From NCBI GenBank assembly GCA_903826405.1, contig CAIKEH010000055.1, forward strand, positions 62,001 to 126,000: 64,000 nt of DNA. Reading direction: 5' to 3'. The position numbers and the translations under genes are program-made. Of this stretch, positions 19,715 to 36,023 are shown piece after piece. Position 1 is the stretch's first letter. Each line of letters begins with the position of its first letter. Below the pieces are notes generated by a model that made no database searches, was not told the origin of the DNA, and was given only the letters and a program-made list of their open reading frames with translations. The stretch is from an uncultured bacterium (GTDB lineage: Bacteria; Bacteroidota; Bacteroidia; Chitinophagales; Chitinophagaceae).

Positions 19715-22144
19715 ATGGAAAGAGCCTTGTTCCTTTACCGCGGCCTATTGCTTTGTATTCTGCTCTGTCCTTATCGATCTTTCACCCAAACCACTGATTT
19801 CTCCCGGGCTTCGGTGGTCTGCTTTCAGTCAGACAAGATATCCTTGACCATTCCGGTGAAAGTGCTCCGGGAAGAGGTGAACAAGCGAACGGGTCTGGAT
19901 CTTTCTTTGGTTGAGAACATAGCTGAAGGAGATGGACCTTACATCATTCTCCTCACAGAAAGAAACACCCCTCTACTTCCTGAATCGATTCAAAAAGCAT
20001 TAGAGAAAATGCCACCTACTGGAAAGGATGGGTTCAGGATATTTTTTTCTTCCCAGACAAAATCGATCATCATCGCCGGACGGGATCCACGAAGTATTCT
20101 TTATGGTGTGGGTTGGTTGCTCAGAAAATCTGAATTCCGCGCAGGTAAAATGGATGTGCCCAACTCCATCTCCATTTCCACCACGCCACAATACGCCATT
20201 CGGGGTCACCAATTGGGATATCGTCCAAAGACCAATGCATATGATGCGTTCACGGTCGGTCGCTTCGATCAGTATATCCGTGAATTGGCCCTGTTCGGTG
20301 CCAATAGCATTGAAATTGTCCCTCCGCGTACCGACGATGATCCGACCAGCAGGCATATGACACTTCCTCCCATGCAGATGATCGCAGAACAGTCACGTAT
20401 TGGTGCGTCTTACGGGTTGGATGTTTGGATGTGGTATCCCAATATGGGTATCGATTATGATGATCCAGCCACCGTCCGGGAAGAATTAAAGGAAAGGGAA
20501 TCCGTTTTTGCTGCGGTGACGAAATTGGATGCGGTTTTCGTTCCTGGAGGTGATCCGGGAGAACTAGATCCGGATCATTTGTTCTCTTGGCTGGAAAAAG
20601 AAGCAACCGTCCTGCACCGCTTCCATCCGCAAGCGAAGATCTGGGTGTCCCCACAGGTTTTCCGACCCACCAGAAAGTGGATGGATGATTTTTATATGCA
20701 CATCAACCGGAAATATCCCTGGTTGGGTGGTGTGGTTTTCGGCCCGTGGATCAAGACTCCCATTTCAGAGATACGTGCCCGGGTGGATCCCTCGATACCC
20801 ATCCGCATCTATCCCGATATCACTCATAGCTTGAGCTCACAGTATCCCGTACCCGATTGGGACCTTGCTTATGCCATGACCCTGGGCCGCGAATGCATCA
20901 ACCCCCGTCCACGTGATGAGAAACATATCCATAACCAGTTTGCACCATTCGCCTCGGGAAGCATCAGCTATTCGGAAGGCACCAATGATGATGTCAATAA
21001 ATTCATCTGGAGTGGTCAGGATTGGAATGAGCAGACCGCCGTTGAAGAAACCTTGCAGGATTATGCCCGCTTTTTCATTGGCCCCGATCAGGCTCACATG
21101 TTGATGGAAGGCATCCTTGGTCTTGAACGGAACTTCCGTGGGCCTCTTGCCGAGAATACTCAAGTGCAAGAGACATTGAAGGTGTTCACCGATTTTGAAA
21201 AAGAAGTAGGACAGGACACGAATCGGAATTTCCGTTTCCAGATGTTTCTCTTACGCGCATACTATGATGCTTTCATTCAGAAGAGGCTTAAACGCGAGCT
21301 CGCCATCGAAAAACAGGCTTATTCCATTTTGGAACAAGCAGGCCGAAAGGGTTCACTATGGAGCATGGACGGCGCCAATAAAATCCTGCGGGAAGGTATG
21401 ATTCCAGATACATCGGATAACTATAGGAAAAGATGCATTGACCTGGCCGATTCGCTTTATTCCAGCATAGGTGCTCAGTTGACGATCCAGAAACATGGTG
21501 CCGCAGAAGGAAGGGGTAATTTCATCGACAACATAGACGTACCACTGAATGATGCGCCTTGGATGATCGGTCAGCTCGATCGCATCGCCAAGATTGGCGA
21601 GGAGGGAAAAAGGTTGAAGGGTATCGATTCTCTTTTGCATCGGACAGATGCGGGTAAGGGAGGGCTTTACATACATTTCGGTACCCCATCCTCCAAGCCG
21701 TTCGTATTGCCCGGAGCTGGCTGGGAAAAGGACCCGGGTGGACTTCTATCCCCCCTCGTCAATTTCGGTGTTGGCACCAAGGAGGATGAATGGGTACATG
21801 AGATCCGTCCGCAGGGTTTTGGAGGGCAGATCGTGCCCAAGGCCTGGATGACACAGGTTGGTACACTGTACGAGCAGCCGCTGCAGATCCACTTCAAAAA
21901 ACTCGATCCAAACGGGCTTTATCGGATACGTATCGCTTACACGGGCAGATTCCGTTCACGGATCAAACTCACTGCTAATGGCAAACTCGTACATGATGTG
22001 TTACAGACAGGGGAACAGCCACTGTACACTTTCGACTTGCCCGATGGATCCGTGAAGGACGGCCAACTCACGCTGACCTTCAGTTGCCCTGAAGGCGAAC
22101 AAGGAGTGCAGGTTTCAGAGATCTGGTTATTGCGAAGGAATTAA
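19715..22144 (+). CDS. Large exported glycosidase-like protein, paralog A
   Basis: This 809-residue protein has a signal peptide (LLLCILLCPYRSFTQ). Residues 30-150 look like the N-terminal alpha/beta domain (zincin-like, as in GH20/GH67/GH84 enzymes): LREEVNKRTG, IILLTERN, AGRDPRSILYGVGWLLRK. A TIM-barrel-like domain follows with RGHQLGYR (163-170), FDQYIRELALFGANSIE (184-200), VFVPGGDPGE (274-283), GRECINPRP (391-399) and SISYSEGTNDDVNKF (416-430). A helical part and a C-terminal beta-sandwich (about 730-809) end the protein. Asp280, Glu393 and Glu421 are candidate acids because the paralog near 34 kb keeps acids at these places. I cannot assign a named CAZy family or substrate. Confidence 0.75.
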   Translation: MERALFLYRGLLLCILLCPYRSFTQTTDFSRASVVCFQSDKISLTIPVKVLREEVNKRTGLDLSLVENIAEGDGPYIILLTERNTPLLPESIQKALEKMPPTGKDGFRIFFSSQTKSIIIAGRDPRSILYGVGWLLRKSEFRAGKMDVPNSISISTTPQYAIRGHQLGYRPKTNAYDAFTVGRFDQYIRELALFGANSIEIVPPRTDDDPTSRHMTLPPMQMIAEQSRIGASYGLDVWMWYPNMGIDYDDPATVREELKERESVFAAVTKLDAVFVPGGDPGELDPDHLFSWLEKEATVLHRFHPQAKIWVSPQVFRPTRKWMDDFYMHINRKYPWLGGVVFGPWIKTPISEIRARVDPSIPIRIYPDITHSLSSQYPVPDWDLAYAMTLGRECINPRPRDEKHIHNQFAPFASGSISYSEGTNDDVNKFIWSGQDWNEQTAVEETLQDYARFFIGPDQAHMLMEGILGLERNFRGPLAENTQVQETLKVFTDFEKEVGQDTNRNFRFQMFLLRAYYDAFIQKRLKRELAIEKQAYSILEQAGRKGSLWSMDGANKILREGMIPDTSDNYRKRCIDLADSLYSSIGAQLTIQKHGAAEGRGNFIDNIDVPLNDAPWMIGQLDRIAKIGEEGKRLKGIDSLLHRTDAGKGGLYIHFGTPSSKPFVLPGAGWEKDPGGLLSPLVNFGVGTKEDEWVHEIRPQGFGGQIVPKAWMTQVGTLYEQPLQIHFKKLDPNGLYRIRIAYTGRFRSRIKLTANGKLVHDVLQTGEQPLYTFDLPDGSVKDGQLTLTFSCPEGEQGVQVSEIWLLRRN

Positions 22145-22229
22145 TGACTCCGGGATATTGTTTTTCATGGGAATGGTCTGATGAAATCATGTGAGCAGTA
22201 AGAGAGTATGTTCGTGATCAAAGGATGGA

Positions 22230-24413
22230 TCAATTCAGCAGCATCTCATCGACAAGCAACAGGTGCTGGTCCTTCTTGACTTTATAAGGTCTGGCCAAGA
22301 TTCTTAAATAGGAGACATTTTGAGTTTTGAATGATCCGACCAGGATCTTCAAGGTGGGATCGCCGTCTTTTTTTGGCATGGAAGGTTTCATGGTCAGCAG
22401 CAGGCGAGCCTGCTTTTCATTTTCCCCACCCCATACTTCCACGAGTTGTGGTGGGTATACTCCGGTTTTTTCCTCGAGCATGTAATGCAGTCCAACGGAA
22501 CTGAGTGAAATGGGTTTGTTGAACAGGGAAACGAGGACAAGATCGTTGTTTCTCACACCAGCCCAGAAATTGGCCCAGGCAGGATTATTGGCCCCGATGG
22601 CTCCAAGTTTCCTGTTGAAAAAGGTATAGGCTCCTTCAGCCTGATGTACGCTGTTCAAAGGCAATAACAATCTTACACTGTCAGGGACATAAGTGTTCCT
22701 CAGGTAATCGAAACTGGCGATATCACTGGAATACCATCCATCCTTGTAGGCCTTCGCTTTCACGGTGGTGGTTTTATCAATGGTTGTCTTTCCATCGAAT
22801 AGGGGTGAATGTATGCTGTCGGGATCCTTTCCATCTGTGGTGAATCTGATCTGCACACCACGCACGGGATGCCTCAATTGGACGGGGATGTCCTGGGAGA
22901 ATACGGTGGTCGGGTTGGAGATCTGCGGGGGATTCAGTTTGAGGGGACTGTTACCATCATCACGGAAACCTTCGTTGAAGCTTATGGCTTTATTATCTTT
23001 TCTGAGGTTTTCCAGATCGGATGGTTTGATGCTGGTCTGCCAGATGGTAACAGTGCGAAGACTCTTTAATTCAGAAAGAATGTTCGACAACCCAGAATAA
23101 GTGATATCTGTTCCGGAAACAGAAAGTGTTTGGAGGTTTTTCAGGGATTTGATCGAACTAAGACCCTTGTCCGTTACGTCGCTGAAATTCAGGTCGAGCC
23201 GGCGCAGATTTTTGAACTGACTTACGCTGACGAGGTCATCATCTTTCACGGGCATTTTATTCAAGTTGAGCGAGATGACCTGATCCCTGATCCCGCTCAT
23301 TTCCTCCAGTTGTTTCTTCGAGTATGCATTTCGGTTATATATGTTCACTTCGAGGGCCGGGGATTTTTTGGCGATGGGCATGATGGTTCGATAATCCGTG
23401 TTCAGTTCTCGGATTGCCTTTGCATCTGCTGCGGCGAAACCGAATGGTTCATTCGAAACGGGTTTCAGCCAGGCGGTGGCCAGTGTTCTCAGGCTGTCGT
23501 CCAAACCGAGTTCGGTCACCTTCACATGGAAGTTGGCATCGTAACGGATCCAAAGTGCCAGCAGACCGATCTCTTCCCGAGTAAGTTGCGGTTTTCCGGA
23601 AGGAGGCATGTGTTTTTCGTCGTCCATGGAAAGATGCAGTCGCTGCATCATCAGGCTCATATCGGCATCTCCAGGCACGAATAACTTGCCTGATTTGCCA
23701 CCCTTGCGGAGGGAAACAGAATCTCCTAGCACCAGTTCACCTTTCAATTTATTCGTGTTGTGGCATCCGGAGCATTTATTCGCCAGTATGGGTTGAATAA
23801 CGTCTGCGAATACGACAGCCTGTTCGATGGGAACGACACGTGCAGGTTTGTGTGAGAGGATGGGTTCCATGAGAAAGTCTTCACCATGGGACAGGTTCGC
23901 TCCATAATGACCTGTTGCGAGCAGCCCAGCGATCATCAATAGGGCGCTTGCCCATGCGGCAGGTGCCTTGAACCAGTTTCGAAATGCCAGCACATAAATG
24001 GCGGAGGCCAGAAAAAAAACGATGACTCCCGCCCATTTGTGCCAGATCAGAGCCTCGCCGGAATAACTGCCTTCCCGGGAAAGGAACAAGCCCATGATCA
24101 GGGTTATCCCTGTGAGCAAGGTGCCTGCAAGCAGGAAACCTTGTTCCGCTAAACTGAATACTACCGTTTTGTCACCCGTTCTTCCGAACCTGACCACTCC
24201 GGCGATCATGGCGAGGGTGAGGAAGGCGATCGGGAAGTGCAGGAGCAAGGGATGCGCTCTGCCAAGTGGTTGCAACCAGTAAGGGATGACCAGCTTATCC
24301 TCGAACAACAACAGGAAAGCGATGACCAAATTCAGGATGAGCAGCGCCTGTTCAGCGTACAATATGGTTCTGTTCTTCTTCAATGATAGATGCTTGTAAC
24401 GTTCATCAGGCAA
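22230..24413 (-). CDS. Multi-domain membrane protein: DUF2231-like helices, cytochrome c-like domain, LRRs, Chb_Hex-type domain
   Basis: This 727-residue protein begins with four or five membrane helices (residues 18-170, with LQPLGRAHPLLLHFPIAF typical of DUF2231-like membrane domains). A Planctomycete-type cytochrome c domain follows, with IQPILANKCSGCHNTNKLKG (haem motif about 214-218) and later HMPPSGKPQLTREEIGLLALWI. Residues 360-460 contain leucine-rich repeats (LRRLDLNFSDVTDKGL, LQTLSVSGTDITYSGL). Then comes a beta domain like the C-terminal domain of hexosaminidases (VRGVQIRFTTDGKDPDS), and a last beta-sandwich. It is the third gene of an operon and overlaps the DUF1501 gene by 8 bases. 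It probably sits in the inner membrane with a periplasmic haem domain. The whole set is of unknown function. Confidence 0.82.
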   Translation of the reverse strand: MPDERYKHLSLKKNRTILYAEQALLILNLVIAFLLLFEDKLVIPYWLQPLGRAHPLLLHFPIAFLTLAMIAGVVRFGRTGDKTVVFSLAEQGFLLAGTLLTGITLIMGLFLSREGSYSGEALIWHKWAGVIVFFLASAIYVLAFRNWFKAPAAWASALLMIAGLLATGHYGANLSHGEDFLMEPILSHKPARVVPIEQAVVFADVIQPILANKCSGCHNTNKLKGELVLGDSVSLRKGGKSGKLFVPGDADMSLMMQRLHLSMDDEKHMPPSGKPQLTREEIGLLALWIRYDANFHVKVTELGLDDSLRTLATAWLKPVSNEPFGFAAADAKAIRELNTDYRTIMPIAKKSPALEVNIYNRNAYSKKQLEEMSGIRDQVISLNLNKMPVKDDDLVSVSQFKNLRRLDLNFSDVTDKGLSSIKSLKNLQTLSVSGTDITYSGLSNILSELKSLRTVTIWQTSIKPSDLENLRKDNKAISFNEGFRDDGNSPLKLNPPQISNPTTVFSQDIPVQLRHPVRGVQIRFTTDGKDPDSIHSPLFDGKTTIDKTTTVKAKAYKDGWYSSDIASFDYLRNTYVPDSVRLLLPLNSVHQAEGAYTFFNRKLGAIGANNPAWANFWAGVRNNDLVLVSLFNKPISLSSVGLHYMLEEKTGVYPPQLVEVWGGENEKQARLLLTMKPSMPKKDGDPTLKILVGSFKTQNVSYLRILARPYKVKKDQHLLLVDEMLLN

Positions 24414-25857
24414 TGATGCCCTTTACGACCTTACCTGACACATCGGTGAGTCGGTATCTGCGACCAAGATGTTTGAAAGTTAGTTTTTCGTGGTCTAGTC
24501 CAAGTTGATTGAGTACGGTTGCCTGGAAGTCGTGCACGTGTACGGGATCTTGCGCGATATTATATCCCAGTTCGTCCGTTTCGCCGTAGACCATACCGGG
24601 TTTAATGCCACCGCCGGCCATCCAGATGGAGAAGCAGCGTGGATGGTGGTCGCGACCATAATTTTCTTTAGTGAGTGTTCCTTGTGTATAGCTGGTTCTT
24701 CCAAACTCGCCACCCCATATGACCAGAGTCTCATCCAACAGACCGCGTTGTTTCAGGTCGGTCACGAGGGCGGCGGATGCCTGATCCACGTCTTTCGCCT
24801 GTTTTGCGATCTCGAAGGGCAGGTTGCCATGCTGATCCCATCCTTGATGATAAAGTTGCACGAAGCGAACGCCGTTTTCAGAAAGTTTTCGTGCGAGCAG
24901 GCAGTTGGCGGCGAAAGTTCCGGGCACCAGGCAGTCCGGTCCATACAACTTCACGATATCATCCGGCTCTTTCGAGATATCCATCACTTCGGGTATGGCG
25001 GATTGCATACGATAGGCCATCTCATATTGCTTGATCCTTGTCGCGATCTCGGGGTCGCCGAACTCGGTATAGGATAGTTCATTCAACTCAGAGACATGGT
25101 CCAGCATCTCGCGGCGGTCCTTTCTGCTCATGCCATCCTGATCCCTCAGGTACAACACGGGATCCTCGCCTTTGCTGAACTGCACCCCTTGGTGTACGGA
25201 ATCGAGGAAGCCGTTGGACCATAATTTTGAGTATACACCTTGCCCATTGCCGATGCCACGTGACAGCAGCACGGTGAAAGCAGGGAGGTTCTTGTTCTCA
25301 TTGCCCAGACCGTAACTGAGCCAGGAACCCATGCTCGGCCTGTTGCCCTGTTGCGATCCTGTTTGAATGAAAGTGAGTGCGGGGTCGTGGTTGATCGCCT
25401 CCGTGTACATGGTCTTGATGATGCAGAGGTCGTCCGCGATCTTCGCAGTATAAGGCAATAGGTCGCTGATCCAGGCTCGTGAATTCCCATATTGCTTGAA
25501 GTCGACAAATGAGCCCACGAGTGGAAATGAAGACTGGCCCGCTGTCATGCCAGTGAGGCGCTGCGTGCCCCTGACTGATGGGGGGATCTCCTTCCCTGTC
25601 ATCTCCCTCAGTTTGGGTTTGTAGTCGAACAGTTCCTGTTGTGATGGTGCGCCGTTCTGGAAAAGATAGATGACCCGTTTAGCCTTCGGTGCGAAGTGTG
25701 GTATGCCCGGAGCTGATCCAGCTTCCAAGCCATTGCCGTCAAAAAGGTCGGGCATCAACAAGGAACCCAAAGCCATCCCACCTATGCCGATCCCCATGGC
25801 GGACAGGAACCGTCTTCTGTTCCAGCTGAAACCATGTTCCACGATCTCTTTGTCCAT
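24406..25857 (-). CDS. DUF1501 family protein (sulfatase-like), Tat-exported
   Basis: This 483-residue protein has a twin-arginine signal, WNRRRFLSAMGIGIGGMALG. DUF1501 proteins have a fold related to the alkaline phosphatase/sulfatase superfamily. The characteristic stretches are KRVIYLFQNGAPSQQELFDYKP, FKQYGNSRAWISDLLPYT, MYTEAINHDPALTFIQTGS, VQLYHQGWDQHGNLP and VIWGGEFGRTSYTQ, then GRDHHPRCFSIWMAGGG. The His and Asp in these motifs would be metal ligands, although the substrate is not established. It is the middle gene of an operon: 27 bases downstream of the PSD1 gene and overlapping the membrane cytochrome gene. In Planctomycetes, DUF1501 and PSD1 genes are also typically paired. Confidence 0.92.
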   Translation of the reverse strand: MDKEIVEHGFSWNRRRFLSAMGIGIGGMALGSLLMPDLFDGNGLEAGSAPGIPHFAPKAKRVIYLFQNGAPSQQELFDYKPKLREMTGKEIPPSVRGTQRLTGMTAGQSSFPLVGSFVDFKQYGNSRAWISDLLPYTAKIADDLCIIKTMYTEAINHDPALTFIQTGSQQGNRPSMGSWLSYGLGNENKNLPAFTVLLSRGIGNGQGVYSKLWSNGFLDSVHQGVQFSKGEDPVLYLRDQDGMSRKDRREMLDHVSELNELSYTEFGDPEIATRIKQYEMAYRMQSAIPEVMDISKEPDDIVKLYGPDCLVPGTFAANCLLARKLSENGVRFVQLYHQGWDQHGNLPFEIAKQAKDVDQASAALVTDLKQRGLLDETLVIWGGEFGRTSYTQGTLTKENYGRDHHPRCFSIWMAGGGIKPGMVYGETDELGYNIAQDPVHVHDFQATVLNQLGLDHEKLTFKHLGRRYRLTDVSGKVVKGIIA

Positions 25858-25884
25858 ATGGGTATTTTTAATGGTTGTAATTCG

Positions 25885-28209
25885 TCATGATTTGGTTATG
25901 GATTCCTCCATATTATAGATCGTTGTGACCACCCTCATCATCGCCGCCAGTTGGCTCTCATCCATCCCTTTGGGGATCGGGTATTCGCCTACTGAAAGTA
26001 TTTTATGCGCCGTTGCCGGGTCGATACTTTTCATTTGATCGTTGAAATATCCGGTGAGAATGGAAACTTCCTTCTCAAGGGGTTTCCGGCATACGATGGA
26101 TCTGAACGCCTTGATGATCTTATCCTTGGTGTCGGATGGCTCGGACAATAATTTTGCAGCGAGAACGCGGGAGGCTTCCAGCACCGTCGGATCGTTGAGC
26201 ATCACGAGTGCTTGTAGTGGGGTGTTGGTCCGTAGTCGGCGCACTTCACAGAGGTCTCTGTTACTCGCGTCGAAGATGGCCATGGATGCCGGCGGGACGG
26301 TTCTTTTGATCAGGGTGTAGATGCCCCGTCTGTATAGTGCGGCACCATGGTCCTGCGTGTAGATGGAGAGCAGGCCACGTCCTGATGTCGCCCCCTCCCA
26401 CAATCCTGCTGGCTGATAAGGTTTCACACTGGGTCCGCCTATGGTCGGGTTGAGCAATCCGCTACTGGCAAGCACAAGATCTCTGACCCATTCTGCATGA
26501 ATGCGGTACCGCGGTCCACGGGCCAATAAAATGTTATCGGGATCCACGGCCAATTTTTCTTTGGTCACGATGGCGGATTGCCGGTAAGTGGCTGAGGTCA
26601 CCATCTTCTTGACCAATCTTTTGATGTCCCAGTCGTGTTCCTTGAAATCCACGGCGAGCCAGTCCAGCAGCGCGGGGTGTGAGGGTAGTTCTCCCTGCAT
26701 GCCAAAATCACCTGCAGTTTTCACGATGCCCCTTCCGAAGAATTCCTGCCAGAGGTCATTCACATACACACGTGCCGAAAGTGGATTCTGGGTGTCGAAA
26801 AGCCATTGGGCGAGACCCAGTCTGTTCTTCGGGTAGGCGTCAGGGAAAGGCATTATGGAATGGGGGGTACCTGGCTGCACCTCTTCGCCCGGTGCATCAT
26901 AGACCCCCCGTTTCAGGATATGTGTCCGGCGAATCGTATCGAGGTCGCCCATCACGGAAACGATCAATTTGCCGCTGTCCTGCTTGTTGATGAAGGGCAG
27001 GGACTTTTTGACATCGTCGTTGCTGATCTCCATGAGCGGTTTTTTGGCATAGGTCTCCGGCCCCCCGATCACTGACTCGATGCCCACCTCTTTTACGCTG
27101 TTGAAAAAAGCATACATCTGATAGTATTCCTTTTGCGAGAACGGATCGTATTTATGATCGTGGCACCTTGCACATTCCAGGGTGACACCGAGAATTCCCT
27201 TGCCGAACAGGTCATTTCTGTCCATGACATAAGCCACCCGGTATTCCTCCGGGATCACACCACCTTCCTCCGTGATCTTGTGGTTCCTGTTGAATCCCGT
27301 TGCCAGAAGCTGTTCCATGGATGCGTTGGGGAGGAGGTCGCCTGCAAGTTGCCAGGTCACGAACTGGTTGTAATGCATGTTCCCGTTGAAGGCATGAATG
27401 ACCCAGTCCCGCCAGGGCCATTGGGTGCGGTAGCCATCATCCTGGAATCCGTGGGAGTCGGCATAGCGGGCGAGGTCCAGCCATTGCAAGGCCATTTTTT
27501 CACCGTAGGCAGGCGATGCCATCAGTTCATCCACCACCTTTTCATAGGCATCTGGACTTTTATCCGCGAGAAAGGCATCCATCATGTTCAAGGAGGGGGG
27601 CAATCCGGTCAGGTCGAGGGCAACACGTTTGAGCAACCTTTCCTTGTCAGCCTCCTCATTCGGGGCGAGCCCTTTCTGTTCCTGCTTGGCAAGTATGAAA
27701 TAGTCGATCTCGTTGCGTGGCCATTTCTTGTCCGAAACCGCTGGAAGGGATGTCTTCTTGGGAGGGGTGAATGCCCAATGCCTTTCGTATTTAGCACCCT
27801 GAGCGATCCATTTTTTGATCAGTTCTATCTCGCGCTGGTTCAACGTGAGGTTTGATGCAGGTGGCGGCATCAGCAAAGAAGTGTCTTTTGAGGAGATGCG
27901 CAGGTAGGCAGCGGACAACTCTGGTTTACCCGCAACAATCGCATGGGCATCAGGATCTTCCTTCAGAGCACTATAGGCACTTTCAGCGATATCCATTCGT
28001 AAACCTGCCTTGCGTTTGTTGGCATCAGGACCATGGCAGGCCAGGCATTTGTCTGAAAGGATGGGGCGGATATCGAAATTATAGCTAACCGAATCCGGCA
28101 GGGGTGCGCTCGCATAGGAGCCCGCCCCTTTTCGATCGCAGGCCAGAATTAAAACGATGATGCCCAGAAAAAGGGACAAAATGTGCCCCGGTTTTGCGCG
28201 GAACTTCAT
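25885..28209 (-). CDS. PSD1 / Planctomycete cytochrome C domain lipoprotein (DUF1549-DUF1553)
   Basis: This protein of about 774 residues has a lipoprotein signal with LVILAC-like lipobox (LFLGIIVLILACDRK). Domains in order are PSCyt1 with CLACHGPDANKRKAGLRMD and LLMPPPASNLTLNQREIELIKKWI; PSCyt2 (DUF1549) with NEIDYFILAK, VALDLTGLPP and LQWLDLARYADSHGFQDD; a second CxxCH (ECARCHDHKYDPFSQKEYY); and PSD1 (DUF1553) with NRLGLAQWLFDTQNPLSARVYVND and LPSHPALLDWLAVDF. It lacks the inserted sugar-binding LamG module found in longer relatives. It heads the three-gene operon. A redox or degradation role on carbohydrates has been suggested for the family but is not proven. The start at 28209 is preferred over 28254 because it begins the lipoprotein signal. 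Confidence 0.93.
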   Translation of the reverse strand: MKFRAKPGHILSLFLGIIVLILACDRKGAGSYASAPLPDSVSYNFDIRPILSDKCLACHGPDANKRKAGLRMDIAESAYSALKEDPDAHAIVAGKPELSAAYLRISSKDTSLLMPPPASNLTLNQREIELIKKWIAQGAKYERHWAFTPPKKTSLPAVSDKKWPRNEIDYFILAKQEQKGLAPNEEADKERLLKRVALDLTGLPPSLNMMDAFLADKSPDAYEKVVDELMASPAYGEKMALQWLDLARYADSHGFQDDGYRTQWPWRDWVIHAFNGNMHYNQFVTWQLAGDLLPNASMEQLLATGFNRNHKITEEGGVIPEEYRVAYVMDRNDLFGKGILGVTLECARCHDHKYDPFSQKEYYQMYAFFNSVKEVGIESVIGGPETYAKKPLMEISNDDVKKSLPFINKQDSGKLIVSVMGDLDTIRRTHILKRGVYDAPGEEVQPGTPHSIMPFPDAYPKNRLGLAQWLFDTQNPLSARVYVNDLWQEFFGRGIVKTAGDFGMQGELPSHPALLDWLAVDFKEHDWDIKRLVKKMVTSATYRQSAIVTKEKLAVDPDNILLARGPRYRIHAEWVRDLVLASSGLLNPTIGGPSVKPYQPAGLWEGATSGRGLLSIYTQDHGAALYRRGIYTLIKRTVPPASMAIFDASNRDLCEVRRLRTNTPLQALVMLNDPTVLEASRVLAAKLLSEPSDTKDKIIKAFRSIVCRKPLEKEVSILTGYFNDQMKSIDPATAHKILSVGEYPIPKGMDESQLAAMMRVVTTIYNMEESITKS

Positions 28210-28507
28210 ATGCAAGGGTTGATCCCCATAAGGGTATATGGCAATATATCTCAAATTTTGTCATTATCCCATCCTTCCATCTGGAACTTGTTTGGTTAAA
28301 AGCAGGGAACGGACTGAAATGGGATTGCCGGTATAAACTTCAAGGGATTATGCTGATCCGTATACATCTGCCTTTAATGGAAAAGTCATGGGAGGGTCAA
28401 AAAATCTCCGGGAATTGAAGATTGTGGCTTACCCTGATCAATATCATGATTTCCGTGACTCCGGGAAAGTACATTCAATTACCATTCACGAATAAAAACT
28501 CCATACC

Positions 28508-29023: not shown

Positions 29024-29054
29024 CCGAGCATTCCAGGGGGGTAAGAACGTTCTC

Positions 29055-30104
29055 TCACAAGGGGCTTGATGTGGCTAATGCGATCACCCGCCCCTTGTTC
29101 CCCACCGCAGTGTAAAAATGATGGACGACGCCTTTCCAGCGGATGACGAATGGCTTGTGGGCATAGATGGCATCGTAGGGTTCGGATGGACGCACCAGAT
29201 CTTCGCCTTTCCATTCTGTCCACTGTGCCAGATCGTATGAACAGGCGAATCGGTCGAAGGCATGCTCACTGCCGTTCCAGAATGCGCCAAAGTAGAACAT
29301 CACAAACAGTTTGCCGATCTTGGTGATCTGTGCATCACCGCAGATGGATCCTTCCTGATGCCTGCTGATGACAGGGTCTTTGCCGAAACGATGCCAATGC
29401 TCCATGTCCGAAGAGGTGGCCATGCCGATGCTTTCATAATGGGCAGTATCACCGCGCGCATTGTAGAACATGACGAATGGTTCTCCTGTGAATTTCTTTT
29501 TATCCCGGATGACCATGCTTTTGAATATGGTCTGATTTTCGAACCACCGTGCATCCTTGTCCTTTGCCGAAAGCACGGCCTCGGGTCTCCTCTTCCATTC
29601 CATTGCCATTGAAGGCTCTTGATTATGGGCGACGCCCACGCCTAATCTTCCTGCTTCGTAACCGGAGGCCGACCCGCCAAGGTAGGAGAGCCAGTATTCG
29701 TCCCGGAAAGCAGCGGGCTTGTAGCTACCGCCCCATCGTATATCCAGAAGAGAAAGATATCCGGCTTTCTGATCTGAATCCCATCCAGCTTTCGTGAAAG
29801 AGAGAATGCGGCCTTTACTTTCCCAATGCAGCAGGTCCTTGCTCATGGCGATCCAGGTCTCGTAACCTCTACCATCGAAGACTATGTAACTCATGTACCA
29901 ACGACCCTTCCATCTGAAAATGGAAGGACTGTCCATCATCTTCGAAGTATCAGGATGACTGAAGACCACTCCATATTTGAAAGGGGTTTTCACAGTTTCA
30001 TATACAGTGTTCATGGTTTTATCACTCACCGTCGTTGTTGTCCTGCTGCTGGCGCATCCAAGGAATACGGACCATGCTGCGGCTATGAAAATTCTCAAGT
30101 GCAT
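29055..30104 (-). CDS. Five-bladed beta-propeller glycosidase-like lipoprotein (GH43/GH32/GH130-like)
   Basis: This lipoprotein of about 349 residues has the signal MHLRIFIAAAWSVFLGC. The fold pattern is a five-bladed propeller of the GH32/43/68/130 type. Repeated blade motifs are SPSIFRWKGRWYMSYIVFDGRGY, IAMSKDLLHWESKGRIL, FRDEYWLSYLGG, GEPFVMFYNARGD, MATSSDMEHWHRFGKDPVI and HKPFVIRWKGVVHHFYTAVG. Candidate catalytic acids are Asp in MDSPSIF and a Glu in the middle blades, but no family-specific triad could be fixed. The start at 30104 is preferred over 30275 because it gives a signal and avoids overlap with the EamA gene. It closes a minus-strand operon with the transporter and the ceramidase-like gene. 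Confidence 0.75.
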   Translation of the reverse strand: MHLRIFIAAAWSVFLGCASSRTTTTVSDKTMNTVYETVKTPFKYGVVFSHPDTSKMMDSPSIFRWKGRWYMSYIVFDGRGYETWIAMSKDLLHWESKGRILSFTKAGWDSDQKAGYLSLLDIRWGGSYKPAAFRDEYWLSYLGGSASGYEAGRLGVGVAHNQEPSMAMEWKRRPEAVLSAKDKDARWFENQTIFKSMVIRDKKKFTGEPFVMFYNARGDTAHYESIGMATSSDMEHWHRFGKDPVISRHQEGSICGDAQITKIGKLFVMFYFGAFWNGSEHAFDRFACSYDLAQWTEWKGEDLVRPSEPYDAIYAHKPFVIRWKGVVHHFYTAVGNKGRVIALATSSPL

Positions 30105-30193
30105 ATGCCTGAATATATAAAATGTTTTAAGATGCATGGGCCCGATTGATGGTGCTTTTAAAATCACTGTTGTGATGGCTCTGGAAAAATGAG

Positions 30194-31108
30194 TCAGGAA
30201 GTTTCGATGTTCTTCCGGCGGGGTACTGAACTGATGCAGATGATGGATGTCATGATGCAGGCGCAGGCCAGCCAATCCATCCCATCAAAATGGATGTGCA
30301 GCCAGTATATGCCCACTACCGTAGCCGCTAAAGGTTCGACGGTGGCGATCAGACTGGCAACTTTGGCTCCGACCATCTTCACGGCCTTCATATAAAAATA
30401 GAAAGCCAGCAAGGTTCCGAATATGATGATGTATGACGTATTCGCCACAGTGGCAAGATCCCAGATTCCCGTGACATGCCATGGGGGGAACAATAAGGAG
30501 AGAAACAATCCGCCGATCAAGAAACCCCATCCGAGGATGACTGAAGTATCATACTTCACCATCAGGGACAAAGGCTGTAAGGTGTACAAAGCCAGAGTGA
30601 ATGCAGATAGTATTCCCCAGAACATCGCCTGGCCGGAAATATGGAGATTGCCGGGGTCACCATGTGTGACCAACAGGAAGATCCCGATCAGGGACAGCAT
30701 CACCGATATCCATTCCAATGGTCTGGGTGCTTTTTTATGTTGTATGGCAAGATATCCGAAGATCAGCACTGGGCCGAGATACTGCAGGATCGTTGCTGTG
30801 GCAGCATTCGAAAATTTGATCGCCGCAAAAAAAGTGTATTGCACACCTAGAATGCCAATGGTCCCGAAGATCAGCATCTTGATCACGGAGTTTCTGTTCC
30901 TCCAGATCGACCAGAGGTCATTGCCCCTCATAGCGGTGATCGACAACAGCAGTATCCCTGAGCTTAAAAGCCGCATCGTGACCAGCCACTCGATGGAGAT
31001 GCCCCTGTGCTGGACCAGGAATTGGACGCAAACTCCAGATACGCCCCAGAAAGTGGATGCGAGAAAAGCCAGCAAAACCCCTTCGAATCTTTTCATCTGC
31101 ATAAGCAT
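30194..31108 (-). CDS. EamA/DMT family transporter
   Basis: This 304-residue inner-membrane protein has ten hydrophobic helices in two EamA repeats of about 140 residues. The first begins GVLLAFLASTFWGVSGV, with a typical FSNAATATILQYLGPVLIFGYLAI stretch. The second begins GILSAFTLALYTLQPLSLM, with IIFGTLLAFYFYMKAVKMVGA and SLIATVEPLAATVVG. The family exports or imports small metabolites such as amino acids, nucleotides or sugars, and the substrate cannot be told. It lies 35 bases after the ceramidase-like gene and 89 bases before the propeller lipoprotein, so it is likely part of the same transcript. Ends with a basic tail (RRKNIETS). Confidence 0.9.
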   Translation of the reverse strand: MLMQMKRFEGVLLAFLASTFWGVSGVCVQFLVQHRGISIEWLVTMRLLSSGILLLSITAMRGNDLWSIWRNRNSVIKMLIFGTIGILGVQYTFFAAIKFSNAATATILQYLGPVLIFGYLAIQHKKAPRPLEWISVMLSLIGIFLLVTHGDPGNLHISGQAMFWGILSAFTLALYTLQPLSLMVKYDTSVILGWGFLIGGLFLSLLFPPWHVTGIWDLATVANTSYIIIFGTLLAFYFYMKAVKMVGAKVASLIATVEPLAATVVGIYWLHIHFDGMDWLACACIMTSIICISSVPRRKNIETS

Positions 31109-31143
31109 TTGGTCAAGGATCGTTCATGATTTCGATCCTTTGA

Positions 31144-32514
31144 TCAACGGCCGGCCAATGCCCCTACCTGTTTCATGACCTCGCCGATCTTCTTCATGAT
31201 GCGGTCTTCAACATCATCTTCAAAACGTCCGGGCTGTCCGTAATAGATCATGCTGTCATCCGCCTCGTATCCGCCTTCATTCAATATCCTTTTATTGGGG
31301 ATGTAGCAGTTGACTTGATTGCAATAGCCGGCCACGAACAAGTTTTCATGTGCATACTTTTTCTTGTTGTTCAGCGAATAGTCTACCACCACTTCATCAC
31401 TCAACCCGAGTATGGTGAGGTCCTTGCCGAAACGCACAGCCTGAATGGGGTAAGAATAACCGCCGGCTCCCCATCCCTTGTTGTATGCCTGTAACATTAA
31501 TTTGGCCCTTCTTTGGAGGTAGATGTTGTCTCCGACGATGTCTTTCTGGTATCTGGAAATATCCACGTCCCTGAACTTGAGTTCGACCTCTTGATAGTTC
31601 GTTCTGATAGGCGCCCGCACGGGTTTGAGTGTTCCTTTCAGCACCTGCTGAACGGCCATCGCCAGTTCCTTGCCATGGTCGACGGCAAGCTGTAGTGTTC
31701 CTCTTGGTTCGGGATTCTGATCACCTGCACAACCCGTGATGAAAAGGGCGACTGCTCCGGGGTTGTTCCTTTCCAGTTCCGTTTGCGCGAAACCGGAATA
31801 ATCCCCACTGATGTAATGATAGTCGTCTACGATCGTCGTGTTGTGGCATGCATAACCGAACAGGATGGCTTTGGTATTTCCTCCAAGATCGGTTACCCGA
31901 AGAACGGGTACATCATGATCCGTTGGTCCGTTGGGGTTGATCAGTCCCCTTCTGTTGATCGCGAATCCAGCCTGACCATGTCCTGCAAACAAGAGACCAG
32001 CAGAAAGATCCGCCATGGCCGAGTCAAGAGCGTCGCAGATTCGAGTGGCCAGTTTTTGCCCGTACGCGGAGACACGACGCTGATCGGCCGCGTCAAATTC
32101 ATATACGACATCGAGGCATGGCCAGATCACGGGTCCGGTATGAGTATGAGATGAGTTGAAGAACAACTGTGAACGGTTCAATTGATATTTCTGTTCCGCA
32201 TGTTTTCTCACCATATCGATGATCTCCGTGGATAGCCCGAGTACTTCTGCCGTGATGAAGACGATCCTGCTGGATGGATTCTCCTGTATGATCAGCACTC
32301 TGGATCGAATGGGTTGCACGATCCCTTTGGAAGGCTTTTCCCTGCTGGCATATCCGGAAAGCCAGATGGGAGTGTCCGGCGTGATGTCTATCTTGGCGAC
32401 ACCGATTTTAAGGGATGCGTCTCTGGGTTTACCCACTGCATACTGCGCATTCGCAGCATCGATCATGGTTATGTATACGAAAACAGGGAGAAAGAGTTTA
32501 ATTATCCTGTTCAT
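31144..32514 (-). CDS. Neutral/alkaline ceramidase-like exported hydrolase
   Basis: This 456-residue protein has a signal peptide ending in NAQ. It matches the N-terminal domain of neutral/alkaline ceramidases: KIGVAKIDITPDTPIWLSGYASR, FFNSSHTHTGP with the metal-binding His pair, ILFGYACHNTTI with a further His, and FITGCAGDQNPEP. The usual family members reach about 650-700 residues with a C-terminal Ig-like domain, which is missing here, so it may act on another N-acyl or amide substrate. It would work in the periplasm or outside. It is the first gene of the operon with the EamA transporter and propeller lipoprotein. The link between the three is unknown. Confidence 0.88.
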   Translation of the reverse strand: MNRIIKLFLPVFVYITMIDAANAQYAVGKPRDASLKIGVAKIDITPDTPIWLSGYASREKPSKGIVQPIRSRVLIIQENPSSRIVFITAEVLGLSTEIIDMVRKHAEQKYQLNRSQLFFNSSHTHTGPVIWPCLDVVYEFDAADQRRVSAYGQKLATRICDALDSAMADLSAGLLFAGHGQAGFAINRRGLINPNGPTDHDVPVLRVTDLGGNTKAILFGYACHNTTIVDDYHYISGDYSGFAQTELERNNPGAVALFITGCAGDQNPEPRGTLQLAVDHGKELAMAVQQVLKGTLKPVRAPIRTNYQEVELKFRDVDISRYQKDIVGDNIYLQRRAKLMLQAYNKGWGAGGYSYPIQAVRFGKDLTILGLSDEVVVDYSLNNKKKYAHENLFVAGYCNQVNCYIPNKRILNEGGYEADDSMIYYGQPGRFEDDVEDRIMKKIGEVMKQVGALAGR

Positions 32515-32779
32515 GGGGGAAAATGGTATGATTAAAATGATTACAGGTATGAAATAGGGCCTTCTGCTTTTTTAGGTTGAAGCCGATTTTTACGATGCTG
32601 ACAAGTTAACGTTTTTGCTATTGACGATTAGGATCTTTTGGAATGGAGGGATCGCTTTTTGTATTCGGTCATGCGGATGTCGAAAAATAGTATGAACAGG
32701 TCAATGCCGTCAGTTTTTTGGATTAAATTGAACGCCGATATATATGCTCTGAAATGGGAGCAGGTATCTTTTCAAATCA

Positions 32780-33607
32780 ATGAATATGAGCCAGAACAAG
32801 CCCATCCTATTCGAGAAACTCCGCGCGGGGAAGAATGTGTACGGAACCAGCATCACTTCCACAGGATTGATGTGGCCGGGGGCCATCAGCAGCGTGGGTC
32901 TGGATTTCGTCTTCATCGATACGGAGCATATCCCACTGGACCGCACCGAGTTGACGATGCTCTGCCAGATGTTCCGTTCCCATGGCATCGCACCCATTGT
33001 GCGCATCCCCTCGCCCGATCCTTACCGGGCCTGCCAATATATTGATGGTGGAGCAGTCGGCGTGGTCGTTCCATACATTGAAACACCTGAGCAAGTGGTG
33101 GATCTGGTAGGTGCGGTGAAATACCGGCCACTCAAGGGAGAACTGCTTTCCGCGTATCTTGATGGAAGCAAGGCGATGCCAGAAGGGCTGAAAGCATATG
33201 TCGATCAGTTCAACAGCGGAAATCTTTGTGTAGCGAATATTGAAAGCGTTCCGGCCATGGAACGATTGGATGAGATCCTCTCCGTTCCGGGATTGGATGC
33301 GATCTTCATCGGGCCACATGATCTGTCGGTCAGCCTTGGGCTACCCGAACAATATGACCATCCTGATTTTGAAAAAGCTGTAAAGGACATCATTCATGCT
33401 GCACGTGCGAAAGGGGTCCATGCAGGGATACATTTTTCACTTGAACCCGAAAGGCAGATCCAATGGATGAAAGAAGGAGTGAACATGGTGGTGCACAGTT
33501 TCGACATCGCGCTTTTTCTTCAGCGATTGAAGCATGATCTCCAGATCATCCGTAAGGCAGCAGGCGATACATCAGGGCCGGATGGCGGGGCCGCCATCAT
33601 CATCTGA
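32780..33607 (+). CDS. HpcH/HpaI family aldolase
   Basis: This 275-residue cytosolic protein has the (beta/alpha)8 pattern of class II pyruvate aldolases: VGLDFVFIDTEHIPLD with the catalytic His, APIVRIPSPDPYRACQYIDGGAVGVVVP, LCVANIESVPAMERLDEI with a metal-binding Glu, and GLDAIFIGPHDLSVSLG with the metal-binding Asp. Such enzymes split 2-keto-3-deoxy-acids (for example from rhamnonate or glucarate) into pyruvate and an aldehyde, or related C-C bonds. It is convergent with the second glycosidase-like gene, with a 16-base gap, and no kinase or dehydratase is adjacent. The substrate is open. The start has an alternative Met two codons in. Confidence 0.92.
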   Translation: MNMSQNKPILFEKLRAGKNVYGTSITSTGLMWPGAISSVGLDFVFIDTEHIPLDRTELTMLCQMFRSHGIAPIVRIPSPDPYRACQYIDGGAVGVVVPYIETPEQVVDLVGAVKYRPLKGELLSAYLDGSKAMPEGLKAYVDQFNSGNLCVANIESVPAMERLDEILSVPGLDAIFIGPHDLSVSLGLPEQYDHPDFEKAVKDIIHAARAKGVHAGIHFSLEPERQIQWMKEGVNMVVHSFDIALFLQRLKHDLQIIRKAAGDTSGPDGGAAIII

Positions 33608-33623
33608 TCAGTAACGGGATTTT

Positions 33624-36023
33624 TCAACGGCCGTTCCGTATCAACCAGATATCGGTCACGCGGGATTGCTGCCTCCAGTTGATGTCATCTTCATTGATAT
33701 CTTCAAAACTGACCTGGATCTTGCGGTCCCGTATGAGTTCCTTCGGAACGGGGAACTCCTTGATCTCCCCCATTTTTTTGCCATATATGGATGGATCGAC
33801 ACGCTTGCCATTGACTTTGAGACGGCATTCGCCGAGACCGGCGACCCGGATCTTGTAATTTGAAGCGGTATCCAGACCATTGTAATCTATCGATACGGGC
33901 CAACGCATGTTAGTCAGCCACGATTGGCGCAACTTGTTGCCCAGAGGATCGGACCAGTCGAATCCAGGATTATCCTGTTTCCGCATGAGCGGGTCCGTTA
34001 CCCAGCTTTCCACCCTCGACACATGCGGAGACTTGGCCACATTACCTATGTCGTCATAATAGCTGCCCGGACCGGGATGTTCCCATGTCGCTATCTCTAC
34101 CAGCGACTTTACCTTCTCCGCTTCCGTCTTGTACTTCAACGAATCGAATCTGTCTTCCATCCATCTGCGGTTGTTGAGCGGATAGTCTATGAAATCCAGT
34201 ACCGCTCCCCTTTCCAATCCCGATGCCTGGTATTTCTTGACGCTGGTCTGCAAGCCGATGGATCGGAAAAGGGTGTCACATAAGCCGATTATCCTCTTAC
34301 GATATGCCGCACCTGCGGGATGGCTTGTTGCTGCATCGAGTATCTCACGGGCTTTCTTCATGGCGTTCGCTGTACCGATCGCGGAGGCATTTTTCAAAAC
34401 ATCATTTGCTTTTTCTTCCAGACCGGATTCATATATTCCACGTGTTCTCACGTATGCATCGTAATTGGAGCGCAGCAGGTACATCTGCCATCTCCAGTTT
34501 CCGTGCAGTGCGGGGTAACGTTTTTCCATGCGATCCCATGCCAGCCAGGTGGCGTTGATGCCGCCATTGGTCTCGGCTGGCCCTTCCCAGTTGGATTCGA
34601 GCGCCAGCAGGCCATCGGCACCCTCTTCCCTCAATTCGGAATGAAAGAAGAAGTTGGCATAATCCATCATCGCTTCCCTTTCCGTGATGTTGCGGTCCCA
34701 GGCGAGTCGTGTCCACATGATCTTGTTCGCATCATCATGCACGCCATCGGAGTAGGAAATGAATCCATCCATATAGGGTTCAAGGAAACGATATAATGCT
34801 GTATAGTGTTTCGGACGCGGATTCACGCTTTCGCGTCCCAAGGTGAAATTGAAGGATGGGTCCCACCAAGGTATGGGGAAATCGCAGCGAACGTTGTGGG
34901 TTAGATCGGGATAGTAGCGCAGTTTGTAGGAAGCGGGTAGTGCCGCTCTGGATTCTTCCACCATGGGACTCGACGGACCGGTGACCAAGCCACCGAACCA
35001 TTCGGGTTTCTGTTCCTGAATATATCGGTAAACCGTTTGGCTTTGAGCGGGAGTGAATCCCTGCAGGGAAAGCCAAATTGCAGCACGGGGGTGATATTTT
35101 TTCAGCAGCAGAGCGACATCTTTCAATAGGGGCCATACGGTTTCAGGCGGATTGTCGCCGGGATCACCACCCGGAAAGAAAACGCCATCCAGGCGGACAG
35201 ACATCTTGCAGATCTTTTCCATCTGGTCCAGATATTTCCTTCTCTTTGCAGCATCTTTCAGATCGAATTGTGCAGGTACCCACATCCAATATTCCAGTTC
35301 ATACTTGTCGCAGATTGCACTGATCTGCGCATTCATCTCATCGGGATCCATCTTGAAGTGCGGACTTCTGGTTTCGTCGAAAATGGGTATGCTTTCTATG
35401 CTGTTGCTTCCGAAAATGACCAGCTCACGGATATATTGTTCGAATTGAGCGACCGTCCAGGCGTCATAGGAGTTTGCGGTATTGCGATAACCCAGTTGAT
35501 GTCCACGCATGGTTTTGGAGGGTGCCGTGGAAATGGCAAGGTCCTCGGTCATGCCCACTGCCCAGGACTTGTATTGGATCTTCCGCAGCAGGTGGCCAGC
35601 ACCGTAGAGAACGCCTTTGCCATCATAACCTTCCACCACGATGACCGTTCTGTCGCGGAGTTGCTGCGAAGCGATCCGAAAGGCTTCGGTTTTGGGTATG
35701 AGCACAGGCCCATTGATCGGCGATAATTCTTTGCGCTTAGGGTCGGATGCTTTGGCCAGCAGAATGATATTCCCCGATGCGGGCCATTGCGAAGTGATAT
35801 TGACTTTCATGCCTGTCCGTTTCCCAATCTCCTCTGAAAGCATCACCGATGCTGACTGTTCTGCCTTGGAAAGTGTTCCCATGCTGGTCACGATGTGCAG
35901 GTTGGTCAGGTAATGGACCTGTGCGATTGTAGATGAGCAGACTAAGATGGCAAGTGATACAATGGACGACAGGATCCATAATTTCTTCCTATTCAGTGTG
36001 GGAGCAGGGAGATCATTTTTCAT
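33624..36023 (-). CDS. Large exported glycosidase-like protein, paralog B
   Basis: This 799-residue protein has a signal peptide ending in STIAQ. Like the protein at 19.7 kb it has an N-terminal alpha/beta domain (LSEEIGKRTGMKVNI, VEGYDGKGVLYGAGHLLRK), then RGHQLGYRNTANSYD, QFEQYIRELVIFGSNSIE, VFFPGGDPGD, RYYPDLTHNVRCDFP, GRESVNPRPKH and FISYSDGVHDDANKIMW, a helical part and a C-terminal beta-sandwich with ITDIWLIRNGR-type end. The two proteins share the order and spacing of all these motifs but are clearly diverged. Conserved acids (Asp of GGDPGD, Glu of GRE, and Glu or Asp of SYS[ED]G) could be catalytic. Family and substrate are not named here. It stands alone. Confidence 0.75.
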   Translation of the reverse strand: MKNDLPAPTLNRKKLWILSSIVSLAILVCSSTIAQVHYLTNLHIVTSMGTLSKAEQSASVMLSEEIGKRTGMKVNITSQWPASGNIILLAKASDPKRKELSPINGPVLIPKTEAFRIASQQLRDRTVIVVEGYDGKGVLYGAGHLLRKIQYKSWAVGMTEDLAISTAPSKTMRGHQLGYRNTANSYDAWTVAQFEQYIRELVIFGSNSIESIPIFDETRSPHFKMDPDEMNAQISAICDKYELEYWMWVPAQFDLKDAAKRRKYLDQMEKICKMSVRLDGVFFPGGDPGDNPPETVWPLLKDVALLLKKYHPRAAIWLSLQGFTPAQSQTVYRYIQEQKPEWFGGLVTGPSSPMVEESRAALPASYKLRYYPDLTHNVRCDFPIPWWDPSFNFTLGRESVNPRPKHYTALYRFLEPYMDGFISYSDGVHDDANKIMWTRLAWDRNITEREAMMDYANFFFHSELREEGADGLLALESNWEGPAETNGGINATWLAWDRMEKRYPALHGNWRWQMYLLRSNYDAYVRTRGIYESGLEEKANDVLKNASAIGTANAMKKAREILDAATSHPAGAAYRKRIIGLCDTLFRSIGLQTSVKKYQASGLERGAVLDFIDYPLNNRRWMEDRFDSLKYKTEAEKVKSLVEIATWEHPGPGSYYDDIGNVAKSPHVSRVESWVTDPLMRKQDNPGFDWSDPLGNKLRQSWLTNMRWPVSIDYNGLDTASNYKIRVAGLGECRLKVNGKRVDPSIYGKKMGEIKEFPVPKELIRDRKIQVSFEDINEDDINWRQQSRVTDIWLIRNGR

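Follow-up and report, generated by a model that had tools for sequence, protein, structure and literature searches.

Two large proteins encoded in a 64,000-nucleotide stretch of the genome of an uncultured Chitinophagaceae bacterium (assembly GCA_903826405.1, contig CAIKEH010000055.1, positions 62,001 to 126,000; hereafter the window) are related by descent and, judged by comparison with Pfam, NCBIfam and PDB sequences, not CAZy, form a separate family-level group inside the superfamily of GH20, GH67, GH84, GH115 and GH138. The two proteins, P0001 and P0002, represent two subfamilies of this group, and a sugar-acid aldolase encoded beside P0002 is, unexpectedly, a co-inherited partner of the family. 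We think it somewhat probable that P0001 and P0002 are an exported glycoside hydrolase (GH) pair of one uncatalogued family, acting on the same amino-sugar glycan and yielding a sugar-acid product that passes to the aldolase. The features concerned are listed here by window coordinates, strand and basis (ORF, open reading frame; aa, amino acids).

19715..22144, +: P0001, 809 aa, glycosidase-like, subfamily 1 (ORF, BLASTP, Pfam/NCBIfam scans, model, tree, profiles)
19790..20182, +: N-terminal alpha/beta domain of P0001, residues 26-156, of the GH20 domain-2/GH67N/GH84 N-domain type (model secondary structure, profile matches)
20198..21025, +: complete (beta/alpha)8 barrel of P0001, residues 162-437 (DSSP of the P0001 model)
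20552..20554, +: Asp280 codon of P0001, in the PGGDPG motif just past barrel strand 4; best candidate catalytic acid (conservation)
21041..21649, +: helical domain of P0001, residues 443-645 (P0001 model)
21662..22141, +: C-terminal beta-sandwich of P0001, residues 650-809 (P0001 model)
32780..33607, +: HpcH/HpaI (YfaU-like) 2-keto-3-deoxy acid aldolase (Pfam HpcH_HpaI, 102.4 vs 25 bits)
33624..36023, -: P0002, 799 aa, same glycosidase-like family, subfamily 2 (ORF, BLASTP, tree, profiles)
35163..35165, -: Asp287 codon of P0002, counterpart of P0001 Asp280 (BLASTP alignment)

Two paralogs outside the libraries compared

P0001 and P0002 align over 779 residues with 34% identity and 52% similarity (BLASTP, E 3e-132), a likeness far beyond chance that identifies them, on sequence, as paralogs. 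A preliminary description of this DNA had reported two related ORFs at these positions and strands with a set of motifs in common order, and this holds; given that the alignment is full-length, the common motifs are part of a full-length paralogy. That description had also given both proteins an exported N-terminus. A hydrophobic stretch of the signal-peptide type is present at the N-terminus of each, as judged by hydropathy only, and both are thus putatively exported. They are the sole family copies detected in their own genome (3.59 Mb; E ≤ 1).

Both proteins stay below every Pfam and NCBIfam cut-off, and a single-sequence search of the PDB returned nothing convincing for either (E 0.11 or worse). 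P0002 has weak sub-cut-off matches to GH20 domain 2, the GH67 N-domain, a xylose-isomerase-like barrel and GH138. Hence the earlier claim that the core motifs lie outside known families stands within these libraries, since neither protein was placed in a characterised family of Pfam, NCBIfam or the PDB sequences. Pfam was scanned on 11 family members in all and NCBIfam on four.

Distribution and two paired subfamilies

Searching genome contigs by tblastn confirmed 565 stretches of the family, of which we kept the best 80 as loci, ranked by likeness to P0001; because of this ranking, subfamily 2 is under-sampled in them. The family is present in Bacteroidota, Calditrichota, KSB1, Acidobacteriota and Alphaproteobacteria, and three plasmid-borne members (in Granulicella, Asticcacaulis and Sphingomonas) are all annotated 'hypothetical protein'. 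On the Sphingomonas plasmid (L189, 1-16130) the member lies a few genes from DISARM and cas3 genes. Among 149 relatives of the window's genome eight carry the family, a ninth match (G043) being to a GH115 protein only.

A quick-method, midpoint-rooted tree of 105 rows of at least 400 aa, in which long branches were flagged by the program and four pairs of rows are repeat fetches (L014/L022, L009/L017, L020/L024 and L021/L023), resolves two deep groups: 14 rows with P0002 (support 98) and 86 with P0001 (support 90). Outside both lie four rows of a distant group and one GH115 protein. This third group comprises L020:598-3468, L021:130-2766 and L220:2476-5115, the first two being 22-24% identical to P0001; in L220 and L225 it stands beside subfamily 2 in divergent orientation. 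Alignment A2 (77 rows) consists of the two window proteins and 75 of 105 other ORFs; fragments, rows fetched twice or nearly identical, and the GH115 protein L011 were left out. A subfamily-1 gene of Dyadobacter sp. CY323 is split into two ORFs (L054:7848-9119 and 9135-10403), as is a subfamily-2 gene of G555 (C97).

We then scored profiles with hhalign in local mode, drawing the DUF4838 set from relatives, the GH138, GH84, GH115 and GH67 sets from genomes of the phylum, and the GH20 set from neighbouring loci. The two subfamilies score 1510 against each other, and 323 and 352 (over 740 and 711 columns) against the distant L020/L021. Scores of subfamily 1 with GH115, DUF4838, GH138, GH67 and GH20 are 107.6, 97.6, 93.6, 91.4 and 55.9, those of subfamily 2 are 89.4, 66.0, 93.7, 74.3 and 51.8, and the GH84 scores (28.0 and 22.3) come from three sequences, all of one genome. 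All known-family scores of subfamily 1 are thus more than 10-fold under its score with subfamily 2. The six pairings among GH115, DUF4838, GH138 and GH67 score 64.0-96.6, so that subfamily 1 is slightly nearer to these four families than they are to one another, its alignment being the deeper. Against the two subfamilies, three members from other phyla reach 1075 and 1111, and against the known families tested no more than 55.8.

The two subfamilies tend to travel together. In 30 genomes that hold subfamily 1, picked by hand from the 80 loci for spread, subfamily 2 is present in 25. It was called at 676 bits or more (in G555, as two pieces that adjoin), the rest scoring no higher than 512 bits, a split that was set after the scores were seen and was confirmed by profile for the 20 stretches fetched. 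Counting the window, 26 genomes have both subfamilies, on the same contig in 15 and within 20 kb in 13. Because they mostly co-occur and often lie close, the two look like partners, which argues for an old duplicated pair that, on sequence evidence, would work jointly. The preliminary description had reasoned from two diverged copies 11 kb apart to different substrates. We find this a weak inference: the split is deep, and the co-occurrence and proximity fit two steps of one pathway, in which the two subfamilies may cleave different bonds in the same glycan.

Predicted fold

An AlphaFold2 model of P0001 was built on the 77-row alignment (predicted local distance difference test, pLDDT, 92.7; predicted template modelling score, pTM, 0.91). 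In the model, DSSP assigns the barrel strands to residues 162-166, 198-201, 236-240, 273-277, 308-312, 337-342, 363-365 and 415-418, with helices between them. Structure prediction and comparison with known folds had been proposed earlier as a check, with a structure lacking a barrel as the contrary outcome; for P0001 the barrel is present. A Foldseek search of the PDB placed GH115 at the top (4.9e-20; ranks 1-3), followed by GH84, GH138, GH67 and GH20, and all 50 matches listed are titled as enzymes of these types, bar 5fl0 and 5fl1, which are titled 'hydrolase'. With the 77-row profile, the N-terminal domain of P0001 matches PDB 6pv5, a putative O-GlcNAcase NagJ (5.5e-6), and GH67 alpha-glucuronidase chains from 0.0015. 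The beta-sandwich has a sub-threshold Pfam match of carbohydrate-binding-module type (residues 711-792, 14.1 vs 27 bits).

The preliminary description had assigned both proteins a GH20/GH67/GH84-style two-domain layout with a C-terminal beta-sandwich. The fold relation to GH20, GH67 and GH84 is borne out, and extends to GH115, but the layout has four parts, not two; the beta-sandwich is there in the model, which covers P0001 only.

Candidate catalytic residues

Asp280 is kept in all 77 alignment rows and in three of three extra members from other phyla, that is, in 80 of 80. Its context reads GGDP in 64 of these, mostly AGDP in the remainder, and the residue that follows it is Pro in 75 of the 77 rows and Gly in two. 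Since Asp280 is kept throughout and located past strand 4, it is, on conservation and the model, the strongest candidate for catalysis. Two further acids had been put forward with it, and these are not strictly conserved: Glu393 (in GRE) is kept in 75 of 77 rows, and at the acidic position of SYS[ED]G 65 rows have Glu, 10 have Asp and two have Ser. Both are missing in L020 and L021, the two most distant rows.

Invariant besides Asp280 in 77 of 77 rows are Asp383, Asp425, Glu471, Asp518, His304 and His371. Three members from Acidobacteriota/Alphaproteobacteria keep Asp280, Asp425, Glu471, Asp518, His304 and His371, with Asp383 changed to Trp in one of the three. Of the arginines, Arg163 and Arg392 are invariant, Arg170 is found in 75 of 77 rows and Arg398 in 72.

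A co-inherited aldolase

The aldolase gene is convergent with that of P0002, with 16 bp between the ORF ends. The nearest solved relative of its profile is YfaU (1.2e-42), and the NCBIfam equivalog for YfaU, PRK10128 (2-keto-3-deoxy-L-rhamnonate aldolase), is not reached (107.4 vs 441 bits), which on sequence puts it in the same superfamily as YfaU but in another subgroup. Positions H50, R75, E155 and D181, which we take to be the active-site positions of HpaI/YfaU, are invariant in 19 of 19 sequences.

Among 27 window proteins tested, the aldolase alone has homologs in more than two of the 80 loci (in a looser clustering, a 704-aa protein of the window also grouped with a dehydrogenase cluster). 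Orthologs covering more than half of the query occur in 40 loci, which belong to Cytophagales, Chitinophagaceae, Flavobacteriaceae, Prolixibacteraceae, Lewinellaceae and KSB1 and vary in their arrangement. In samples of 395 phylum genomes, the glycosidase-like family (E ≤ 1e-10) turns up in three, and the aldolase (E ≤ 1e-40) in the same three; the probability of this by chance is 1e-7, or 1.3e-5 without the window's own genome, taking genomes as independent. The two samples of 395 contain the same genomes among those listed. Conversely, an aldolase ortholog (at least 43% identity, the next matches being at most 33%) is present in 36 of 38 family-bearing genomes; a few have two. The 38 amount to about 37, as G330 and G536, with the same coordinates, seem to be one genome. 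Within 30 genomes, window included, it lies no more than 20 kb from a family gene in 21. The aldolase is a co-inherited partner of the glycosidase-like family.

Neighbouring genes and substrate clues

Neighbours in the 80 loci were grouped by single-linkage BLASTP, each cluster named by one representative, and scans covered part of the clusters; because many loci end at contig edges, the counts are lower bounds. The recurrent clusters are a major facilitator superfamily (MFS) carrier (at least 27 loci), GH20 (at least 26), a NagX-like acetyltransferase (at least 26), a ROK kinase (at least 24), a metallophosphatase (at least 23), a 744-aa propeller protein (at least 17), DUF4838 (at least 14), and SusC-like and SusD-like proteins (at least 10 and 9). 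Spirosoma, Larkinella, Runella or Dyadobacter hold all 26 GH20 loci, 25 of the 26 NagX-like and 22 of the 24 ROK. The one NagX-like protein that was scanned with Pfam passes HGSNAT_cat, and the MFS representatives are closest to GluP, whose cut-off one of them passes and the other does not. Fitness data from five bacteria (PMC9007349) show that NagX supports the use of glucosamine.

Other lineages show related arrangements. L223 and L224 have subfamily 2 beside SusC, SusD, a different GH20 type and a NagX-like protein. In the Flavobacteriaceae loci L217-L219 both subfamilies stand together with the aldolase, a 2-hydroxyacid dehydrogenase and the 744-aa protein, and two of the three loci also have GH92, ROK and a GluP-type carrier. 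The Asticcacaulis copy comes after GH2, GH3, beta-galactosidase, GH125 and GH92 genes and before a fucosidase and a beta-N-acetylglucosaminidase-domain gene, a set that reads to us as N-glycan type on gene content. Sialidase-like (BNR) and BT_1020-like neighbours stand beside some members. Together, the amino-sugar-type neighbours and the NagX tie favour, and suggest as the substrate class, an amino-sugar-containing glycan, of which a sugar acid would be the part needing the aldolase.

The recurrent 744-aa neighbour (c7; L078:1081-3315 and its relatives in A3) is strongly conserved with no Pfam match over cut-off. Its model (pLDDT 80.9) is a beta-propeller with a helical part, and fold matches are uninformative as to its chemistry.

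Other genes of the window

22230-28254, -: three genes between P0001 and P0002, for a PSCyt1/leucine-rich-repeat protein, a DUF1501 protein and a PSCyt1/DUF1549/DUF1553 protein (Pfam)
29055-30275, -: match to positions 8-351 of 1400 of NF049877, beta-D-glucuronidase/beta-L-arabinofuranosidase (410.9 vs 1800 bits)
31144-32514, -: short neutral-ceramidase-like protein, 456 aa (Pfam Ceramidase_alk, 76.5 bits)
36273-39304, -: two tandem DUF1254/DUF1214 proteins adjoining P0002 (Pfam)
44913-52223, +: run for deoxysugar (rhamnose/fucose-type) catabolism, with isomerase-like, RhaT, aldolase-dehydrogenase, RhaA-like and flavin mononucleotide (FMN) dehydrogenase genes

The protein at 29055-30275 is likely, from this match, a stand-alone version of the N-terminal part of NF049877, and has no homolog beside the family genes of relatives in the 80 loci. 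The ceramidase-like protein is far below the NCBIfam neutral ceramidase cut-off. DUF1501 and PSD1 proteins like those at 22230-28254 occur in one relative locus, L093.

Three substrates were considered and set aside. For glycosyl inositol phosphoryl ceramide, prompted by the ceramidase and phosphatase neighbours, there is no direct evidence, and nothing relevant stood among the papers listed. Rhamnogalacturonan II came into question through a GH137-like gene of the window and the BT_1020-like neighbours, and the GH137-like gene is without a homolog near relatives. As to peptidoglycan or N-acetylmuramic acid, the SIS neighbour is closest to GmhA-type models, with just 20.9 bits to the MurQ type.

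Favoured explanation and alternatives

In the explanation that we favour, P0001 and P0002 would be exported glycoside hydrolases of one family outside Pfam, NCBIfam and the PDB sequence set, each binding the non-reducing end of a glycan in a pocket at the C-terminal end of the barrel. Asp280 would act as the general acid in glycosidic bond cleavage, with water or an intermediate activated either by His371 or by another acid in the loops of strands 7-8, for which Asp383, Asp425 and, where present, Glu393/Glu421 are candidates. Both subfamilies would act on the same amino-sugar-containing glycan. Frequent neighbours in relatives are GH20 hexosaminidases, a NagX-like acetyltransferase, a ROK kinase and a GluP/NagP-type carrier. 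A sugar acid would be the second product of the glycan, to be split in the cytoplasm by the YfaU-like aldolase as the final step. We infer the hydrolase activity, the export, the residue roles and the substrate class from the comparisons above.

A number of results weigh against this explanation. TM-scores of the P0001 model to solved glycosidases are just 0.38-0.53, with root-mean-square deviations of 8.5-19 Å (Foldseek). The acid pair of GH20, GGDE, is found in none of the 80 family members and in 26 of 26 neighbouring GH20s, which makes the canonical substrate-assisted hexosaminidase mechanism unlikely. The GH20 loci all come from one clade and so represent few independent events, and the NagX-like proteins fall under the NagX cut-off (195 and 184 vs 480 bits). 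In the window itself, GH20, ROK kinase and HGSNAT/NagX are absent among the 30 ORFs scanned with Pfam, which counts against transferring the substrate to it, and for the MFS carrier immediately upstream of P0001 (18116-19366) the neighbours in the 80 loci include no homolog. Subfamily 1 was found alone in five of the 30 genomes (G542, G543, G550, G551 and G559). Three of the 395 genomes, the window's own included, carry the co-occurrence with the aldolase; an ortholog is missing from G007 and G545; and the aldolase suits a glycan of amino and neutral sugars alone poorly.

Two other substrate assignments we regard as tenable if doubtful. The family may instead consist of glycosidases for acid sugars, such as inverting alpha-uronidases of the GH115, GH67 or GH138 kind; the uronic acid released would be converted to a 2-keto-3-deoxy acid and passed to the aldolase. 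In favour of this are the aldolase link, the rank of GH115 as nearest both by the subfamily-1 profile (436 columns) and by fold, and the single acid past strand 4 in place of the GH20 pair, and the four arginines described above could bind a carboxylate. GH115 and GH67 are reported to have their fold and active-site location in common but not the residues of the active site (PMC3879575), which makes a third family of this sort plausible. However, no uronate isomerase or sugar-acid dehydratase was found among the scanned representatives of recurrent neighbours (part of the clusters), amino-sugar genes are among those neighbours, and the GH115 alignment is weak within the barrel. Alternatively, the family might work ahead of GH20 and NagX and cleave, by a non-canonical mechanism, the N-acetylhexosamine linkages of glycans of the N-glycan or chitin type. 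The Asticcacaulis locus, where GH92, GH125 and a fucosidase occur with a beta-N-acetylglucosaminidase-domain protein, is consistent with this, as are the GH20 and NagX-like proteins that stand next to each of the subfamilies in different lineages, the reported role of NagX in glucosamine use (PMC9007349), and the presence of GH84 and GH20 among the fold matches. It is countered by the lack of GGDE, by Pro or Gly after Asp280 in 77 of 77 rows, and by a profile likeness to GH20 and GH84 (the latter three sequences of one genome) below that to GH115, GH138 and GH67, and it leaves the aldolase unexplained.

Two further alternatives concern the nature of the family itself. It is rather unlikely, in our estimation, that the family is already numbered in CAZy and new only to the libraries compared. 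CAZy and dbCAN lie outside those libraries and the family is widespread, with 565 stretches; set against this, the window proteins reach no Pfam or NCBIfam (June 2026) model, three of three members in the plasmid collection are annotated as hypothetical, and nothing fitting is among the papers listed on new families in these genera. The one candidate from the GH195-GH200 literature, GH195, is related to GH99 according to PMC13063451. We are more sceptical still that the proteins are not hydrolases, the barrel having been recruited to another reaction on the same sugar, such as that of a lyase or an isomerase. The canonical acid pair is indeed missing, and P0002 has a weak match to Pfam AP_endonuc_2, a xylose-isomerase-like barrel (23.7 vs 31.1 bits), but the 50 fold matches listed are glycosidases or titled 'hydrolase', and the hydrophobic N-terminus and the SusC/SusD or glycosidase neighbours in relatives speak for a hydrolase.

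Returning to the pair with its aldolase, we found no description of the family among the papers listed on related GH families, DUF4838 and new families in these genera. We suggest, tentatively and with less confidence than in the favoured explanation, that a new GH family of two paired subfamilies and a private HpcH/HpaI aldolase subgroup would constitute a catabolic pathway not yet described: the paired glycosidases would release a sugar acid outside the cytoplasm, and retro-aldol cleavage would finally split it to pyruvate. In a bolder form, which the BNR sialidase-like and BT_1020-like neighbours allow, the released acid may be a 2-keto-3-deoxy (ulosonic) sugar. The paired inheritance and the aldolase partner make this a concrete pathway rather than an orphan enzyme and narrow the search for its substrate. 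The family has hundreds of members, and its three annotated records read 'hypothetical protein', so annotation may be overlooking a kind of glycan breakdown.

Comparison with known families

The family is like GH84 (O-GlcNAcase) in its fold, with matches such as human O-GlcNAc hydrolase 7ou8 (6.5e-17), and in its N-domain (6pv5). The GH84 catalytic pair is an adjacent Asp-Asp past strand 4. The family has no such adjacent pair, and the Pfam NAGidase catalytic domain is not listed for the window proteins up to E 1. With GH20 (beta-N-acetylhexosaminidase) it has in common the N-domain, the barrel and an Asp past strand 4 in a G-G-D context, but the Glyco_hydro_20 catalytic domain is not listed for P0001 or P0002 up to E 1, and P0002 matches domain 2 with only 16.3 vs 26.1 bits. 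A GH89-like alpha-N-acetylglucosaminidase, prompted by NagX as a distant relative of human HGSNAT, was rejected, as the NAGLU set (seven sequences) scores 21.8 and 26.7 against the two subfamilies, with a probability of at most 1%.

GH67 (alpha-glucuronidase) resembles the family in the N-domain and part of the barrel (192 columns) and in fold (1l8n, 1gqi). Pfam Glyco_hydro_67M is not listed for the window proteins, the N-domain match of P0002 is 12.3 vs 24.3 bits, and the distant member L015 barely passes that cut-off (25.2 bits), in the N-domain only. Likeness to GH138 (alpha-galacturonidase, rhamnogalacturonan II) consists of the N-terminal domain (93.6 over 140 columns) and fold match 6hzf, and barely enters the barrel; for P0002, NF049878 gives 15.6 of the 1300 bits needed, and for P0001 no match. 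Pfam assigns DUF4838 (PF16126) no function and the window proteins do not match it, but the distant members L020, L021 and L220 exceed its cut-off over roughly the final 45 positions of the model (39-43 bits), and its profile scores 118.7 with L020/L021. That DUF4838 is GH163 was not supported, as its profile met PDB 6q63 at the C-terminal part only.

The last of these comparisons is with GH115 (xylan alpha-1,2-glucuronidase). Here, too, there are differences: Pfam Glyco_hydro_115 is not listed for the window proteins, while the true GH115 protein L011, serving as a positive control, scores 502 bits. The residues proposed for BoAgu115A in PMC3879575 are Asp206, Asp332, Glu375 and His422, for the mapping of which the barrel part of the profile alignment is too weak. 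Nevertheless, GH115 gives the best cross-family profile score of subfamily 1, its structures 4c91 and 4zmh, and also 6nps, are the top fold matches of the P0001 model, and its domains stand in the same order.

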